From positions 1 to 35,248 of the forward strand of contig CAIMKX010000031.1 of assembly GCA_903842025.1 (NCBI GenBank): a stretch of 35,248 nucleotides of DNA, given 5' to 3'. The translations under genes were made by a program, and so were the position numbers. The DNA comes from an uncultured bacterium. GTDB lineage: Bacteria > Patescibacteriota > Minisyncoccia > Phycocordibacterales > PALSA-1337. A model generated the notes under the pieces. The model made no database searches. It saw nothing but the letters and a program-made list of their open reading frames with translations, and was not told the DNA's origin. Positions 15,473 through 20,154 of this stretch are shown here, in pieces (position 1 is the first letter of the stretch; each line of letters starts with the position of its first letter).

Positions 15473-16960
15473 CTAGCTTACGTGGTGTCGATTTCTTATT
15501 TGATTCAATTCAATCTTCTCAACTTTTTCTTTTTTTTCTTTACCTTTGTTGGCTAAGTCGGTTAATTCCTTGTCAGAAAGTTTGTTTAATTCTAGAGTTC
15601 TTTTCTCAAGATATTCTACATTGTTGAGATCAGGGTTATCCAAGACTTCTTCAAGCAAAGCATTCAAAAGAAGGCCAATTTTTGGGCCAGCTAGAAGATT
15701 TGATATCTTCATGATACGTTCCCCATCAATTTTGAGCATTTTCACAGAAACAGGATCTCTGAGTGCCTCTTCAATCATTGACTTATATTTTCTAAGTCTG
15801 TACGGGTTTTCCTTCGGACGACCGGTACCAATACGGTCACAAACACGTAGGTTCATGAGATTCCAGATGTTTTCCGGTCCAACATTAACAATCATGCGTC
15901 TGACAGCTGAAAGCGTAATTAGCTCAGGATCGGCGAAAAACATGTGCCACCTGACCAATTTGGTGACTTTTTCGATAGTTGCACGTGAAAACTTCATTCT
16001 TTCAAGGATTTTATGTGTTTCACATGAACCAACGATTTCATGGCCATAAAACGTTGGTTGATTTGTCTCACGTGAAAAGGCAGACGTTTTTGGCTTGCCC
16101 ACATCGTGAAAGAGGGCTGCTAGTCTCATTTCCAGGTCCAATTCCTTATCGGCAGAGTGTTGAGCTGTTCTAAGTAAATGCTCCCAAACGTCGTAAATAT
16201 GGGCTTGTGGCTGTTTGACTCCAATGCCATATTCGAGCTCGGGTACAATGAATTTGAGCAGGTTTGTTTCGTGTAACATTTCTATGCCCAGTTTCGGATT
16301 TGGAGACATAAGTATTTTGACGAATTCATCTCTAATCCTTTCTACTGAAACATCCTTAATCAATAAATTATGGCTTTGTATAGCCATTAGTGTATCTTTG
16401 TTGCACGTGAAACCCAATTCTACGGCTAATCTTATTGCCCTCATCATTCTAAGCGCGTCTTCATTAAAACGATCCAAGGGTTCACCTACGGTTCTAATTA
16501 CATTGTCTTTTAGGTCTTTAAAGCCTTCATACAGGTCAACAATGTCCTTAATAGCTCCATTGGACAGGCTAATGGCCATGGCGTTTATGGTGAAGTCGCG
16601 TCTTTTAAGGTCATCCTCAAGCTTGTCGCTGAATTTGATCTCATCCGGATGTCTGCGATCGGAATAACCCGATTCAACGCGATAGGGAGTAATTTCGACG
16701 CTTTTGAGAGTTGGTTCTTCGGTAGTCTCGTTGATAACGGCGACAGTGCCAAAAAGATTCTCATAAACAGTTTTAGGAAACAGACTTTGAATCTGGTCAG
16801 GCTTGGCGTTGGTTGTAATATCCCAATCTTTTGGTGTTCGACCTAATAGGATATCGCGGACACAGCCACCGACCAGATATGCTTGAAAACCACCTTTTTC
16901 GAGGGTTTCAACGACTGTTGTTATTTCAACAGGAATGGTGTTTTCTTTGACAGTTTTCAT
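15473..16960 (-). CDS. cca: CCA tRNA nucleotidyltransferase (class II) with HD domain
   Basis: Adds or repairs the 3' CCA of tRNAs without a nucleic-acid template. Visible: the class II head domain YLVGGCVRDILLG (GG at 31-32, RD at 35-36) with catalytic DWD at 45-47; the neck motifs RRDFTINAMAI and RFNEDALRMMRAIRLAVELGF; and a central HD domain (LAALFHDVGKP with CETHKILERMKFS). The 495-aa length fits the HD-containing form. The C-terminal tail is Lys/Glu-rich. None of the four tRNA genes nearby encodes CCA, so this enzyme would be essential for them. It is divergent from the HTH/LAGLIDADG-like gene at 17024 across a 63-nt AT-rich gap with a TATAAT close to its ATG. Confidence 0.95.
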   Translation of the reverse strand: MKTVKENTIPVEITTVVETLEKGGFQAYLVGGCVRDILLGRTPKDWDITTNAKPDQIQSLFPKTVYENLFGTVAVINETTEEPTLKSVEITPYRVESGYSDRRHPDEIKFSDKLEDDLKRRDFTINAMAISLSNGAIKDIVDLYEGFKDLKDNVIRTVGEPLDRFNEDALRMMRAIRLAVELGFTCNKDTLMAIQSHNLLIKDVSVERIRDEFVKILMSPNPKLGIEMLHETNLLKFIVPELEYGIGVKQPQAHIYDVWEHLLRTAQHSADKELDLEMRLAALFHDVGKPKTSAFSRETNQPTFYGHEIVGSCETHKILERMKFSRATIEKVTKLVRWHMFFADPELITLSAVRRMIVNVGPENIWNLMNLRVCDRIGTGRPKENPYRLRKYKSMIEEALRDPVSVKMLKIDGERIMKISNLLAGPKIGLLLNALLEEVLDNPDLNNVEYLEKRTLELNKLSDKELTDLANKGKEKKEKVEKIELNQIRNRHHVS

Positions 16961-17006: not shown

Positions 17007-17015
17007 TGATATAGT
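17007..17015 (+). promoter_or_regulatory. Extended -10 for the HTH/LAGLIDADG-like gene
   Basis: TGA followed by TATAGT, only 8 nt before the ATG at 17024, so the mRNA would be nearly leaderless. The paralogue at 19395 has a matching TGATATAAT (19358-19366). Confidence 0.4.
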
Positions 17016-17023
17016 TATGTAAC

Positions 17024-17704
17024 ATGAAAGCTAGATTACAAGATAATAAACTAGTAATTGAACTGCGGAAACGAGGTTTCAGTTATAAAGAAATACAAGA
17101 AAATATCCCTGTTTCTAAAGGTTTGATATCCAGATGGCTTACGAATATATCTTTTTCTCCAGAAGAAGATGAACTTCTCAGATTACATCGAATTGATAGG
17201 CTGGAGCAGGGTAGACTTCAATCAATTTCGGTTAATCGGAAAAAGAGAATTGACAGGGAAATCAAGGCTTTTGAAGATGCGAAAACAATATTTGCACAGT
17301 ATCACAAAGATCACAGTTTTATTATCGGTGTAGTGTTATACTGGGCCGAAGGAGCCAAAAGTGGCGGGGGATTGCAGTTTGTCAATTCCGATCCGGCTAT
17401 GATCAATTTTATGTACAAATGGATACAGAAGTATTTGAAAATATCCAAGGATAGGATTGAATGCCGTTTGTTTACGCGCAGGACGGCCAGGCATGAGGAT
17501 TATTTGTCTTATTGGGCCGGAATGCTGAGTATCGATAGATCCTTGCTTAAAAAGACGATAATCAAACCGAGACGTCATGTCGTCAAAAACGACTCGAATT
17601 ATAAGGGCAGTATTCGGTTAAGTGTCACGAATGTATACGTTTTGAGGCTGATGAAGGCTTGGCAAAAGTTGGTTATGCAGTATTATGGTGAAATGCGCCC
17701 GTAG
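17024..17704 (+). CDS. HTH plus LAGLIDADG-like protein, 3' end overlapping tRNA-Arg
   Basis: A 226-aa protein with two parts. Residues about 5-50 are a helix-turn-helix (KLVIELRKRGFSYKEIQ then VSKGLISRWL). Residues about 95-225 resemble a LAGLIDADG-type homing-endonuclease fold: GVVLYWAEGAK could be the acidic motif, followed by LQFVNSDPAMINFMYKWI and a second half with YLSYWAGMLSID. It is clearly homologous to the split ORF at 19395-20075 (shared HTH, YW/YI-x-EG-x-K and VNSDP motifs). The reading frame ends in ATG CGC CCG TAG, whose last ten bases are the first ten of tRNA-Arg; the stop is tRNA nucleotides 8-10. The LAGLIDADG link is inference from motif shape; activity is unknown. Transcription through it would also make the tRNA. 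Confidence 0.75.
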   Translation: MKARLQDNKLVIELRKRGFSYKEIQENIPVSKGLISRWLTNISFSPEEDELLRLHRIDRLEQGRLQSISVNRKKRIDREIKAFEDAKTIFAQYHKDHSFIIGVVLYWAEGAKSGGGLQFVNSDPAMINFMYKWIQKYLKISKDRIECRLFTRRTARHEDYLSYWAGMLSIDRSLLKKTIIKPRRHVVKNDSNYKGSIRLSVTNVYVLRLMKAWQKLVMQYYGEMRP

Positions 17705-17768
17705 CTCAACTGGATAGAGCACTTGGCTTCGAACCAAGAGGTTGTAGGTTCAAGTCCTACCGGGCGTA
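17695..17768 (+). tRNA. tRNA-Arg (anticodon TCG)
   Basis: Complete cloverleaf: acceptor GCGCCCG with CGGGCGT (1-72 is a G-U pair), D arm GCTC...GAGC, anticodon stem CTTGG/CCAAG with loop CTTCGAA giving TCG, and T arm GTAGG TTCAAGT CCTAC. Discriminator A; no encoded CCA. The 5' ten bases are shared with the end of the upstream ORF. Confidence 0.97.
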
Positions 17769-17792
17769 CACGTGATATGAACATTGCAATGA

Positions 17793-17819
17793 CTTTTCAA
17801 ATAGTGCATACTTGAAAAG
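17793..17819 (+). terminator. Hairpin after tRNA-Arg
   Basis: CTTTTCAA and TTGAAAAG form an 8-bp stem around an 11-nt loop, followed by a T run. Probably ends the HTH-tRNA-Arg transcript. Confidence 0.6.
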
Positions 17820-17903
17820 CAATTTTTCGAATTGTTTATTCGCAACTACTCCGAGGCTTAGCGGGCTTGCCCGCCGTAGCTACGAGCGTAGCGAGTAGCG
17901 TAG

Positions 17904-17974
17904 GCGGGTATAGTTTAGTGGTAGAACGTATCGTTGCCAACGATAAGATGGGAGTCCGATTCTCCCTACCCGCA
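17904..17974 (+). tRNA. tRNA-Gly (anticodon GCC)
   Basis: Cloverleaf: acceptor GCGGGTA/TACCCGC, anticodon stem TATCG/CGATA with loop TTGCCAA giving GCC, and a T arm with loop GTCCGATT. Discriminator A; CCA not encoded. A GC-rich palindromic stretch (about 17859-17903) precedes it. Confidence 0.96.
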
Positions 17975-18016
17975 CTGCTTCGCAACCCCGTAATGCACGG
18001 GGTTGCTTCGCAGTGC
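17972..18016 (+). terminator. Hairpin overlapping the 3' end of tRNA-Gly(GCC)
   Basis: Arms 17972-17991 and 17997-18016 pair in two blocks (6 and 9 bp) around a symmetric CTTCG internal loop. No long T tract follows; it may be a processing or termination signal. Confidence 0.5.
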
Positions 18017-18115
18017 AGGCACTTGTGTAACAGAATACTCCTGTTATATGAGATGCGAAGCAGGACAGTAATATTTGACACATAAAGCCAGTGTGAAGGA
18101 CTTATTAACTGTGTC

Positions 18116-18197
18116 TGTGAATAATGTCCTCGTGGAATGGCTTAAAATCATAAAATAATAGACAAACAGTGGATAAGTCTGTGGATTATGTGCATAA
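18116..18197. other. Cluster of four DnaA-box-like 9-mers
   Basis: All in one orientation: TGTGAATAA (18116-18124) and TGTGCATAA (18189-18197) match the TGTGNATAA consensus; AGTGGATAA (18168-18176) and TGTGGATTA (18180-18188) each have one mismatch. They lie in AT-rich sequence just upstream of yraN. No dnaA, dnaN or rpmH is in the window, so this is not a confirmed origin. Confidence 0.4.
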
Positions 18198-18209
18198 AAG
18201 ACAAAAAAT

Positions 18210-18614
18210 ATGGCCTATAATCGTCAAATGAACAAAACCTATAATCATTCCAAGGGCAACAAAGGTGAAGATGTTGCCTGTAAATTCGTTGTTTCCAAGG
18301 GTTTTGAGATTGTCGAACGAAATTATCGCAGAGCCTGGGGTGAAATAGACATAATAGCCAAAAAGGACAATGTTGTGCATTTCTTTGAAGTCAAAAGCGT
18401 TACTTCTGATTATAATGAAACGCTTGGTGGCCATAAACCAGAAGAAAATGTCCATAATTTCAAAATTCGCCACATAAGACGGATGATAGAAACATATTTG
18501 GAAGAGAAGTGCGATGGCTTTGAGACAGATTTTAGCTTTCATGTCTTATGTGTATTCTTGAATATGCGAACCAGAAGGGCCAAGGTTGAATGGATCAATG
18601 ATTTGATTTTGTAG
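18210..18614 (+). CDS. yraN: YraN/UPF0102 family putative nuclease
   Basis: A 134-aa protein of the UPF0102 family, restriction-endonuclease-like fold with proposed roles in DNA repair or Holliday-junction-type processing. The family motifs are KGNKGEDVACKFV (E20), VERNYRRAWGEIDIIAKKDN (E45, D47) and FFEVKSV (E60, K62), giving an intact PD-D/ExK-like site. It is slightly longer than the usual ~120 aa, with an internal stretch around 65-80. The start could be 18210 or the ATG seven codons in (18228). DnaA-box-like 9-mers lie directly upstream and tRNA-Pro follows 33 nt after its stop. Confidence 0.88.
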   Translation: MAYNRQMNKTYNHSKGNKGEDVACKFVVSKGFEIVERNYRRAWGEIDIIAKKDNVVHFFEVKSVTSDYNETLGGHKPEENVHNFKIRHIRRMIETYLEEKCDGFETDFSFHVLCVFLNMRTRRAKVEWINDLIL

Positions 18615-18647
18615 AGATGAAACATATATGCTAGGATGATTTGACAC

Positions 18648-18720
18648 CGGAGCGTGGTGTAACGGCTAACATTCCTCTTTTGGGAAGAGGCGACTCCGGG
18701 TTCGAATCCCGGCGCTCCGA
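18648..18720 (+). tRNA. tRNA-Pro (anticodon TGG)
   Basis: Acceptor CGGAGCG/CGCTCCG, anticodon stem CCTCT/AGAGG with loop TTTGGGA giving TGG, and T arm CCGGG TTCGAAT CCCGG. Discriminator A, no CCA encoded. Starts 33 nt after yraN. Confidence 0.97.
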
Positions 18721-18724
18721 CAAA

Positions 18725-18785
18725 ATCGCAAATGCAAAATTGAAAAATCAAAATGGAAAATGACAAGGCAAAATGTGAAAACGAA
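18725..18785. repeat. Low-complexity intergenic repeat related to the rsmA arms
   Basis: AAAATG/AAAATC words with the block ATGACAAGGCAAAAT that also occurs, reverse-complemented, at the outer edge of the rsmA inverted repeat (about 1075-1100). It marks a dispersed family. Confidence 0.6.
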
Positions 18786-18794
18786 TCACGCCAG

Positions 18795-18875
18795 CCGCGC
18801 CCTCAGGCGGGAGAAGTGTCGCGTAATTCGAGCGAAGCGAGAATCGGAGCGACACTTGTCTCGCCGAGGCGCGGA
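18795..18875. repeat. Large imperfect GC-rich stem-loop
   Basis: CCGCGCC...GTGTCGC on the left pairs imperfectly with GCGACAC...GGCGCGG on the right, with a CGAGCGAAGCGAG-type centre. It lies immediately before the small membrane protein gene at 18899. Similar GC-rich palindromic islands occur near 17860 and 20780-20850. Confidence 0.65.
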
Positions 18876-18898
18876 GGTATTTTAAACTACAAAACCTA

Positions 18899-19324
18899 AT
18901 GATCAAAAAAATAGTAAACTTCTTTGATAAATTCGAGGATGTCGTACGAGGCCATTTGAGCCGATATCCCATTATCTATACGATCATTGGAGGTACTGCA
19001 ATAGTGCTTTTTTGGCGAGGGGTTTGGCATACGGCTGATATTCTTCAAGCAAAAGGTGGATGGCTAGGATGGTTATTTTACGAACCGATAAATATGGTTA
19101 TCGTAACAATGATTCTTCTGGCAACCGGTCTTTTTGTCTCCGCTTTTATCGGTCAAAGCATCGTGATCAGTGGATTGAAGAAAGAAAAGAAAGCGACGGA
19201 CAAGACTGACAAAGAAATAGCCGCTGAAGGACAAGAATTGAAGGAGATTCAAACTTCGATTCAGGAAATGAAGAAAGAAGTGGATGAGATAAAGGAGGTT
19301 GTGGAACAGAAAGATTCAAAATAA
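18899..19324 (+). CDS. Small two-TM protein with C-terminal coiled coil, unknown function
   Basis: A 141-aa protein without a named family. There is an amphipathic N-terminus (IVNFFDKFEDVVRGH), TM1 at about residues 24-43 (IIYTIIGGTAIVLFWRGVWH), TM2 at about 66-88 (INMVIVTMILLATGLFVSAFI), and a highly charged coiled coil from 93 to the end (Lys/Glu-rich, with EIQTSIQEMKKEVDEIKEVV). Topology suggests a small inner-membrane protein presenting a coiled coil on one face, perhaps for oligomerisation. It stands between tRNA-Pro and the split HTH/LAGLIDADG-like gene. Confidence 0.85.
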   Translation: MIKKIVNFFDKFEDVVRGHLSRYPIIYTIIGGTAIVLFWRGVWHTADILQAKGGWLGWLFYEPINMVIVTMILLATGLFVSAFIGQSIVISGLKKEKKATDKTDKEIAAEGQELKEIQTSIQEMKKEVDEIKEVVEQKDSK

Positions 19325-19357
19325 TTTTTCTATTTCATTTATTCAGAATATACTTTC

Positions 19358-19366
19358 TGATATAAT
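19358..19366 (+). promoter_or_regulatory. Extended -10 before the split HTH/LAGLIDADG-like gene
   Basis: TGA directly followed by a perfect TATAAT, 28 nt before the ATG at 19395. The same arrangement precedes the paralogue at 17024. Confidence 0.45.
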
Positions 19367-19394
19367 TACATCTGAGCAACTATAATTAGTTCAG

Positions 19395-20075
19395 ATGTAT
19401 TCAAAATCAATAAAAGGCGAGGCGATCAAATTGAGAAAAGAGGGCAATTCCTATTCAATTATTTCCTCGAAAATATCAGTGGCAAAAAGCACTTTGAGTG
19501 ACTGGCTCAAAGATGTACCTTTTTTGCCGAATAAACTTGTTTTACATAATAGATCATAAAATATTAATAACATTATTCGAATAAAAAGGGCGGATAAGAT
19601 GTCTTGTTATTTGAGGGCCTTAGAATATGGGAAAAATCAGATTGGAGAGCTAAATCAAAGAGATGTTTTTATGCTTGGTTTGGGTCTCTATATAGGGGAA
19701 GGTAGTAAAACTGCTAGTCAGATAAGAATCGTTAATTCTGATCCAAGAATAATCAGATTTTCAATGATGTGGTTCAGGAAGTGTTTCGGGCTAAATATAG
19801 ATAACTTTCGATTACGGCTACACATTTATCCAGATAATGATGAACAAACTGCTGTAAATTTCTGGAAAAATGCACTAGGAATGAAAAGAGAGCATATCCA
19901 GCAGTCCTATATTGATGTTCGGACGAATAAAAAGAAGAATAGGAAGGGAGTTTTACCATACGGTACGGCTCATTTGGGTGTCAGTAGTAATGGCAATAAA
20001 GATTTTGGAGTCTTGTTGCATCGGAAGATTATTGCTACTATTGATTTTGCTCTTAACCAAATATCGCGGGATTAG
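19395..20075 (+). pseudogene. HTH plus LAGLIDADG-like gene split by one in-frame stop, overlapping tRNA-Gly
   Basis: The paralogue of 17024-17704. The ATG at 19395 opens a 54-codon HTH part (IKLRKEGNSYSIISSKISV then AKSTLSDWL) ending in TAA at 19557-19559. The same frame stays open from 19560 through an ATG at 19599 to the stop at 20073-20075, giving GLGLYIGEGSKTAS, IRIVNSDPRIIRF and FWKNALGM, which align with the paralogue. So a single nonsense codon separates the two parts; the C-terminal 158-aa domain could still be made from 19599. The frame ends in CGG GAT TAG, the last ten bases being the first ten of tRNA-Gly(TCC). TAA is not reassigned in any CPR code known to me, so decay or a sequencing error is likelier than recoding. 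Confidence 0.75.
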
Positions 20076-20136
20076 TTTAGTGGTAGAATGACACACTTCC
20101 AATGTGTAGACGCGAGTTCGATTCTCGCATCCCGCA
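20066..20136 (+). tRNA. tRNA-Gly (anticodon TCC)
   Basis: Acceptor GCGGGAT/ATCCCGC, anticodon stem ACACA/TGTGT with loop CTTCCAA giving TCC, and T arm GCGAG TTCGATT CTCGC. Discriminator A; no CCA. Its first ten bases are the last ten of the split ORF. Confidence 0.97.
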
Positions 20137-20154
20137 CAAATAGTTCATTATTGT

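Follow-up and report, generated by a model that had tools for sequence, protein, structure and literature searches.

A family of genes coding for proteins with an N-terminal helix-turn-helix (HTH) and a LAGLIDADG-type domain lies directly 5′ of tRNA genes in Patescibacteria, and each clade of the family keeps to one isoacceptor; this adjacency and this fidelity are near certain. The family is represented here by an open reading frame, ORF1 (positions 17024–17704), on a contig of 35,248 nucleotides (nt) from an uncultured member of the Patescibacteriota (CAIMKX010000031.1, assembly GCA_903842025.1), the whole of which is referred to below as the window. Comparison of ORF1 with its relatives makes it probable that they are selfish, free-standing homing endonucleases that act on the cognate tRNA gene; that the anticodon arm of this gene is the target is plausible and distinctly less secure.

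Of 100 genomes searched in full, 57 have the family, among them that of the window. The places found (loci L001–L031 and L206–L281) hold 113 distinct ORFs, 104 of which reach at least profile position 190, the other nine being fragments or frames cut by contig ends. For 87 of the 104, a tRNA gene on the same strand starts between −90 and +60 nt from the stop codon (three of these tRNAs were called by ARAGORN in intron mode only); two lie at a contig end and 15 show neither situation. Among these 15, a divergent tRNA gene 33–83 nt before the open frame was seen for six (L027, L231, L235, L224, L256 and L239), and two more (L249 and L271) adjoin a split tRNA-Thr (see below). A second set, which overlaps the first and takes in the best-scoring 80 named loci, has the tRNA within −80 to +60 nt in 110 of 131 cases; three genes are at a contig end and 18 are outside this range, among them several fragments or genes running through a tRNA. 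Of 544 control frames from the same loci, all outside the family and 150 codons or longer, 18 are found within −80 to +60 nt of a tRNA, and the excess, 87/104 against 18/544, rules out chance adjacency. A first-pass annotation of the window had proposed a mobile LAGLIDADG-type gene at the 5′ edge of tRNA genes; the position is upheld by these counts, and the mobility is what we infer. The neighbours in the two sets are tRNA-Arg(TCG), Gln(TTG), Lys(CTT), Ile(TAT), Met(CAT), Gly(TCC), Gly(GCC), Trp, Arg(CCT), Arg(TCT) and Ser(CGA), as well as Val(GAC), Phe, Ala, Tyr, Asn, His, Leu and Thr. At most loci the tRNA beside the gene is complete and the gene is outside any intron, i.e., free-standing.

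In a quick maximum-likelihood tree of 129 proteins, for which four tRNA labels were assigned by hand, the identity of the adjoining tRNA changes 12 times for 12 types, the minimum being 11; with 'no tRNA' as an extra state, the same tree requires 22 changes against 84 after shuffling. The sole misfit, L111, stands directly before a tRNA-Lys(CTT) that was missed by ARAGORN and found by Rfam, and so agrees with its clade. That the L111 gene is inserted within tRNA-Lys was considered and ruled out, a full tRNA-Lys following the gene (Rfam); its upstream 5′ stub stands (see below). Because shared descent adds to clustering of this kind, the match of clade and isoacceptor shows fidelity, not transfer, and fits homing and vertical descent equally well. 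The gene is polymorphic at one syntenic cluster. Among 30 loci of the window's bacterial family with the Arg-Gly-Pro-Gly tRNA cluster, not all of which hold the complete cluster, it stands before Arg in five (L146, L153, L160, L173 and L174), before Gly(GCC) in five (L147, L151, L154, L162 and L163) and before neither in 20, of which L156 and L157 hold a family frame elsewhere.

The ancestry of the family among LAGLIDADG endonucleases is very likely, as judged from profile matches and a predicted structure. At E ≤ 1e-4 the family profile A1 retrieved I-DmoI sequences only (7 of 7; best E 6e-6), HTH proteins being added at E ≤ 1, and the family motif LYWAEGxK aligned to LYVAEGDK of I-DmoI. An AlphaFold model based on 68 sequences (predicted local distance difference test, pLDDT, 94.9; predicted template modelling score, pTM, 0.81) places HTH helices within residues 2–39, a long helix at 46–93 and an alpha/beta domain at 97–224. 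In the second of two structural comparisons (for the first, see below) the top matches were the TliVMA intein (Z 7.5) and I-DmoI (Z 7.0; 2.5 Å over 84 residues), with a fatty-acid-binding protein (Z 6.5) and WhiA (3hyi; Z 5.3) further down; GIY-YIG and other nuclease folds were not among the 50 matches listed, which excludes nothing. The LAGLIDADG fold suspected in the first-pass annotation is in keeping with this model. For the two window proteins, the matches in Pfam, NCBIfam and PHROGs were limited to weak HTH hits and stray ones, with no Pfam or PHROGs nuclease family and no Pfam LAGLIDADG model at E ≤ 1; in 26 members searched at E ≤ 0.1, HTH_23 was matched by 21, and LAGLIDADG models were absent from the 25 listed of the 53 Pfam families matched. 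The catalytic Glu is found in 68 of the 87 tRNA-linked genes, is another residue in 10 and has no call in nine. Members that adjoin a tRNA and lack the Glu (having H, N, S or K) were noted at L005, L007, L013, L016, L018 and L030 and, for Gly(GCC), at L250, L252 and L278. The ratio of nonsynonymous to synonymous substitution rates (dN/dS) is 0.04–0.23 in the 12 of 52 pairs for which it could be computed (dS 0.9–2.6, several near saturation); the compared pairs show purifying selection.

Used alone as query, the ORF1 protein (P0001) gave no relatives in the first scans, and tblastn against phage and plasmid collections returned no match at E ≤ 0.01. With profile A1, 86 of 286 genomes from the phylum proved to have the family, the window's own counted, and a pattern scan of named genomes yielded 582 relatives, the best-scoring 80 of which were kept, mostly in Patescibacteria lineages with some in Omnitrophota, Saganbacteria and 'ANGP1'. 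Four relatives are in viral contigs (L112, L113, L114 and L115); in L112, L113 and L115 several tRNA genes surround the family gene, many of them in L113 (Rfam).

ORF1 is open, overlaps tRNA-Arg by 10 nt and ends in a TAG formed by tRNA nt 8–10, exactly as first described (ARAGORN, Rfam and the sequence itself agree). The second frame described in the window, 19395–20075, also ends in a TAG that is nt 8–10 of tRNA-Gly, with a 10-nt overlap; it is not one intact ORF, and the second gene is broken, because a TAA (codon 55) lies inside the frame at 19557–19559. The homology claimed for the two proteins was confirmed (29% identity over residues 11–190, E 6.6e-19), as were promoter-like −10 sequences before both genes, an extended −10 before ORF1 and TATAAT before the second copy; ORF1 and the second copy are the only two places in the window's genome with a family match (E ≤ 0.001). 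An overlap of fixed length, in contrast, had to be given up. The stop codon is at or before the tRNA start in 48 of the 87 genes, and in the 39 others the overlap measures 10, 15, 21, 23, 38, 39, 45 or 89 nt (10 nt with TAG in 17, 15 nt with TAA in six, 39 nt with TAA in three, 45 nt with TAG in three, and ten others). The second set has 65 of 110 genes stopping before the tRNA and 45 overlapping it, with the 10-nt TAG arrangement in 16 of the 110, from the Arg, Met, Ile and Gly clades. A functional overlap fixed at 10 nt is ruled out by these numbers. The borrowing of U8-A9-G10 as a stop codon is recurrent, then, and neither universal nor of fixed length; it looks like a by-product, since overlap length varies and 48 of 87 genes stop before the tRNA. 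Stops fall inside the tRNA because the ORF abuts it and reads in, U8-A9-G10 being the first stop in one of the three frames. The tabulation of homologues hence gave the expected enrichment upstream of tRNAs together with a variable overlap. A promoter for the tRNA within the 3′-end of the gene (TTGGCA-N16-TATTAT before tRNA-Arg) was also considered; such a sequence is visible in part of the Arg clade, and we do not claim a promoter because the conserved residues WQK..QYY account for the sequence and other members lack it.

Three traces, none of them proof, suggest the anticodon arm as the target: tRNA stubs, the geometry of operator-like sequences and altered stems. When masked flanks were searched with cognate tRNA profiles, 14 fragments of at least 10 bits were found, 13 of which begin or end at profile nt 29–43; an antisense control gave one hit, and one random non-cognate profile per gene gave four. 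At L017 an exact 5′ tRNA copy ends at nt 36 and exact 3′ copies start at nt 34, L123 has a tRNA copy matching nt 7–40, and at L111 a 5′ stub of tRNA-Lys, reaching to about nt 31, is placed directly before the gene. At L019, L049, L052, L066 and L111 the 3′-end of the tRNA (about nt 53–75) is repeated as a short piece some hundred bases downstream of tRNAs; these pieces are perhaps old attachment sites. Anticodon loops are also interrupted near family genes: a group I intron (Rfam) follows the gene in L126 and is close to it in L012, L127, L132 and L140, and a tRNA-Thr(GGT) with an insert of about 180–190 nt just after the anticodon was called by ARAGORN at L269, L275 and L011 (2030–2296). At L249 and L271, read by eye, the 5′ half of tRNA-Thr(GGT) and then the insert follow directly downstream of the family gene. 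The Thr inserts of L249, L269, L271 and L275 had no match to the Rfam group I model at E ≤ 0.01, and Rfam found no intron family in the window.

For the stems, we compared anticodon-stem pairs 31–39/30–40 between loci with a Glu-intact gene, loci with a gene that is Glu-less or without call, and loci without a homing endonuclease gene (HEG-less). The T-A/G-C type of tRNA-Arg(TCG) was found in 21 of 31 HEG-less and 5 of 6 Glu-less loci, against 4 of 24 Glu-intact ones (p 3e-4 and 5e-3, Fisher test); the 24 include L133, where the gene is of the Gly clade and lies close by. Lineage confounds this comparison, for among HEG-less genomes the T-A/G-C type occurs in 21 of 39 outside the window's family and in 25 of 29 inside it, and the comparison was therefore repeated within that family. 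There, the standard stem (T-A/G-C) of Arg(TCG) was seen in 0/3 Glu-intact loci, 6/7 that are Glu-less or without call and 19/23 HEG-less loci; that of Gly(TCC) in 3/8 Glu-intact and 14/14 HEG-less loci, the Glu-less class being empty; and the C-G/C-G type of Gly(GCC) in 0/1, 2/5 and 20/24. Pooled, 3 of 12 Glu-intact loci have the standard stem as opposed to 53 of 61 HEG-less ones (p 4e-5), and the Glu-less or uncalled class, with 8 of 12, has p 0.10 against HEG-less; the broken second copy of the window is counted here as Glu-intact, and loci with less than 700 nt upstream (two Arg, two Gly(GCC)) were set aside. In tRNA-Gly(TCC) the identity of the anticodon arm is 0.69 between Glu-intact-associated and HEG-less genes and 0.93 among HEG-less genes, against 0.82 versus 0.88 and 0.79 versus 0.85 elsewhere in the tRNA. 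The change is concentrated in the anticodon arm, which favours escape of the site over the arrival of a tRNA that is foreign throughout.

Upstream of the genes, GAAC is present at −60 to −15 in 74 of 131 family members (64 of 543 control ORFs) and GTTC at −15 to 0 in 30 of 131 (19 of 543). GAAC/GTTC pairs 24–60 apart were counted in 29 of 131, with a shuffled mean of 2.3 and a spacing of 37 in 15 of them; arms complementary at 7 or more of 10 positions were found in 17 (0.55 when shuffled), of which 14 belong to the Gln clade, where the −10 box is between the half-sites. Because these putative half-sites flank the gene's own −10 box, the Gln-clade protein probably represses its own gene. The half-site, G(G)TTC(G/A), is like the tRNA T-loop. 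From the centre of the anticodon to the GTTC of the T-loop there are 18.5 bp in 22 of 30 Gln-clade tRNAs and 19.5 in eight, and half of the spacing of 37 is 18.5; we count this as one numerical agreement only, since both distances are usual for tRNAs.

The way in which such an element might spread can be outlined from these traces. Each lineage of the family would be dedicated to one tRNA gene. A homodimer would bind that gene, its LAGLIDADG core lying over the anticodon stem-loop (in DNA, a natural dyad) and an HTH over the GTTCRA of the T-loop. In a cell without the element, the enzyme would cut the tRNA gene at the anticodon; the 3′ half of the recipient would then prime on the donor tRNA, and leftward copying would restore the 5′ half and carry in the gene ahead of it. 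Repair from a copy that bears the element would leave a complete tRNA preceded by the gene, and sometimes a stub that breaks off at the anticodon. Re-cutting of the resident tRNA would be avoided through changed anticodon-stem pairs, or through an intron or insert in the anticodon loop. Priming and copying of this kind would account for a fixed right junction, a variable left junction and the occasional upstream stub. A broader and more tentative proposal is that anticodon stems throughout the Patescibacteria could have been shaped by an arms race with dedicated endonucleases of this design, a LAGLIDADG dimer with an HTH reading the T-loop; an element joined to a tRNA that compensatory stem changes have made uncuttable would then behave like a gene drive with a built-in rescue allele, and Glu-less descendants may persist as autoregulators.

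Several observations weigh against homing at the anticodon. Cleavage and mobility are inferred for the family. Seven of the 104 genes (L029, L212, L031, L229, L257, L263 and L261) have neither a same-strand nor a divergent tRNA, L029 having an antisense one. Five of the 14 tRNA fragments, at L127 (twice), L012, L126 and L065, the latter being the locus of L011, were reassigned as halves of intron-split tRNAs; the repeats of L017 are at a contig end, and local alignments, which tend to end in variable stems, supplied most of the 14 breakpoints. An exact-match scan for pieces of any tRNA in the loci listed 23, and 13 of these are from the 3′-end, starting at about the T-loop; four of these 13 are from the cognate tRNA (L019, L049 and L066, twice), and there are a few other break points too. 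As for the stems, the 'standard' type and the pair positions were chosen after viewing the sequences, and the statistics ignore tree-like relatedness; HEG-less loci for comparison number none for Ile, Gln and Trp, Gly(GCC) has one Glu-intact case, and standard stems stand beside Glu-intact genes in 3 of 8 Gly(TCC) and 4 of 24 Arg(TCG) loci. In its full form, the operator dyad is almost exclusive to the Gln clade (14 of 17), and ORF1 has none. Fold matches are middling: RidA-type folds reach Z 5–6 in the second structural comparison, and Foldseek, against the PDB and BFVD, gave no match at E ≤ 0.001. In view of this null and the background of Z scores, the call of the fold rests on sequence and structure jointly. 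Finally, Glu-less pairs of the Arg clade have dN/dS values of 0.16 (L013/L018) and 0.21 (L018/L030), hinting that Glu-less members have been domesticated as regulators.

The last point bears on the strongest alternative, which we still consider unlikely for the family as a whole, namely that it is a domesticated WhiA-like regulator, autoregulated, which controls and is co-transcribed with the tRNA unit that follows, any nuclease activity being lost or irrelevant. A near-leaderless promoter of its own, operator-like dyads, low dN/dS even in the Glu-less pairs and the presence of WhiA among the fold matches would all suit a regulator. Retention of the catalytic Glu in most tRNA-linked genes would not, nor would the patchy presence of the family (57 of 100 genomes), the inner stops of the window's second copy and several others, the orthologous tRNA clusters with and without the gene, or the tRNA fragments with breaks near the anticodon. 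The regulator reading may hold, however, for those Arg and Gly(GCC) sublineages that lack the Glu.

The remaining alternatives have little probability each. Were the protein an anticodon nuclease that cuts the tRNA and not its gene, the adjacent resistant tRNA would make it a toxin with built-in immunity, and changes in tRNA-Gly(TCC) would be expected where they are, in the anticodon stem; the fold and the Glu-Lys motif are nevertheless of the DNA endonuclease type, the breaks near the anticodon in tRNA gene copies happened in DNA, and in the window's genome tRNA-Arg(TCG) beside ORF1 is the only match of its pattern, so that no sensitive copy is left to poison. Equally improbable is the model of the first-pass annotation, whereby RNase P removes the stop codon within the tRNA and nonstop decay silences the gene. 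Stops inside the tRNA do recur in several clades (39/87; 45/110), yet the members that stop before it (48/87; 65/110) could not be regulated in this manner, and overlap length varies widely; what the data suggest instead is that the DNA of the tRNA is targeted. Collaborative (trans) homing, in which the gene mainly mobilises anticodon-loop introns and the tRNA edge is a waiting place, draws on the family genes beside anticodon-split tRNAs (L126, L012, L127, L132 and L140; for Thr(GGT), L269, L275, L249 and L271); it is no better placed, as most neighbouring tRNAs are unsplit and the Thr inserts lack a match to the Rfam group I model at the threshold given above. Homing of a free-standing endonuclease on its cognate tRNA gene thus remains the reading that we favour.

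Table 1. Features of the window that belong to, or lie near, the two family genes
Feature	Position	Strand	Evidence and remarks
Extended −10 element, TGA-TATAGT, TGATATAGT	17007–17015	+	Sequence and upstream comparison
ORF1, HTH and LAGLIDADG gene	17024–17704	+	Open frame, 226 amino acids (aa), catalytic Glu kept; family profile, AlphaFold model, I-DmoI match
N-terminal HTH, ORF1 residues 2–39	17027–17140	+	Secondary structure of the model; Pfam HTH_23 in relatives
LAGLIDADG-type motif GVVLYWAEGAK, ORF1 residues 102–112	17327–17359	+	Family motif aligned with I-DmoI GLYVAEGDK
Glu109 codon of ORF1	17348–17350	+	
Lys112 codon of ORF1	17357–17359	+	
TAG stop of ORF1	17702–17704	+	tRNA-Arg nt 8–10
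tRNA-Arg(TCG)	17695–17769	+	ARAGORN, Rfam RF00005; 10 nt shared with ORF1
Anticodon stem-loop of tRNA-Arg, CTTGGCTTCGAACCAAG	17722–17738	+	G31-C39/G30-C40; T31-A39/G30-C40 in 19/23 HEG-less loci of the window's bacterial family
tRNA-Gly(GCC)	17904–17975	+	ARAGORN, Rfam
tRNA-Pro(TGG)	18648–18721	+	ARAGORN, Rfam
TATAAT	19381–19386	+	Sequence; 8 nt between its end and the second-copy ATG
Second family copy, pseudogene or split gene	19395–20075	+	TAA (codon 55) at 19557–19559; catalytic Glu codon intact
Longest remaining ATG frame of second copy	19599–20075	+	158 aa, LAGLIDADG part without HTH; stop TAG is tRNA-Gly nt 8–10
tRNA-Gly(TCC)	20066–20137	+	ARAGORN, Rfam; 10 nt shared with second-copy frame
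Anticodon stem-loop of tRNA-Gly(TCC), ACACACTTCCAATGTGT	20091–20107	+	A31-T39/C30-G40; T31-A39/G30-C40 in 14/14 compared HEG-less loci of the window's bacterial family

Within the window (Table 1), the anticodon stem-loop of tRNA-Arg would be either a cleavage target or an escape allele. The −10 hexamer of ORF1 ends 8 nt from the ATG, so that the mRNA would be near-leaderless, and a like sequence precedes a homologue in another genome (G001, locus L003). The tRNA-Gly(GCC) of the window has no family gene before it; its stem is altered (G31-C39), and over 72 nt it is 100% identical to a tRNA of genome G017 that does have a family gene in front. The altered stem is possibly the trace of a lost insertion. 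Divergent from ORF1, a frame of 495 aa on the minus strand (15473–16960) has an N-terminus that we take to be like that of tRNA nucleotidyltransferase (CCA-adding enzyme).

If the favoured reading is correct, a family that Pfam, NCBIfam and PHROGs do not recognise would amount to a collection of meganucleases, present across the phylum and naturally specific for many tRNA genes, and both the odd variation of anticodon stems and the tRNA fragments in Patescibacteria would be accounted for. The family would also illustrate how homing on an essential gene is possible in reduced genomes, namely from a place before a copy that cannot be cut. Enzymes, targets and escape alleles would come in matched sets, with which changes in the specificity of homing endonucleases could be studied.

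In the open-licence literature, as far as titles and the beginnings of abstracts tell, we recognised no paper on LAGLIDADG genes abutting tRNA genes in the candidate phyla radiation (CPR)/Patescibacteria, which does not imply their absence from print. An intron-encoded endonuclease, I-Ssp6803I, reportedly of the PD-(D/E)xK fold, is said to target the anticodon region of a tRNA gene, the region that may also be the target of the ORF1 family. It is intron-encoded and, reportedly, of another fold, whereas the ORF1 family is free-standing and mostly beside an uninterrupted tRNA. WhiA has a C-terminal HTH and has lost the catalytic residues; it is like the ORF1 family in combining a LAGLIDADG fold with an HTH in a protein of the DNA-binding kind, and differs in that the HTH of ORF1 is N-terminal (residues 2–39) and the catalytic Glu is present in ORF1 and mostly kept across the family. 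WhiA/DUF199 is described in a passage of PMC3984707 as a LAGLIDADG-fold transcription factor. Passages of two further papers describe insertions in CPR rRNA genes that encode LAGLIDADG enzymes (PMC11270868; PMC7143001). I-ShaI, one of these (PMC11270868), shares the LAGLIDADG core with I-DmoI and the ORF1 family, in which E-G-x-K aligns with I-DmoI; I-ShaI is inside a 23S rRNA insertion, and the words 'tRNA' and 'HTH' do not occur in the main text of that paper. The closest parallel is SegB of T-even phages, according to passages of PMC13096335 a free-standing, tRNA-associated GIY-YIG homing endonuclease that cuts inside tRNA genes, with the motif RAWTSGAAC in 23 of 83 sites. Read on the other strand, this motif is GTTCSAWTY, like the conserved T-loop, and the operator half-sites of the ORF1 family resemble the same element. 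Both SegB and the ORF1 family are free-standing and colocalised with tRNA genes; SegB, as described there, is of the GIY-YIG type, phage-borne and beside many tRNA isotypes, whereas the ORF1 family combines LAGLIDADG with an HTH, resides in bacterial chromosomes directly 5′ of the tRNA and keeps to one isoacceptor per clade. The way of life is, on this comparison, known in kind from phage SegB, and its isoacceptor-bound, bacterial LAGLIDADG version seems to be new.

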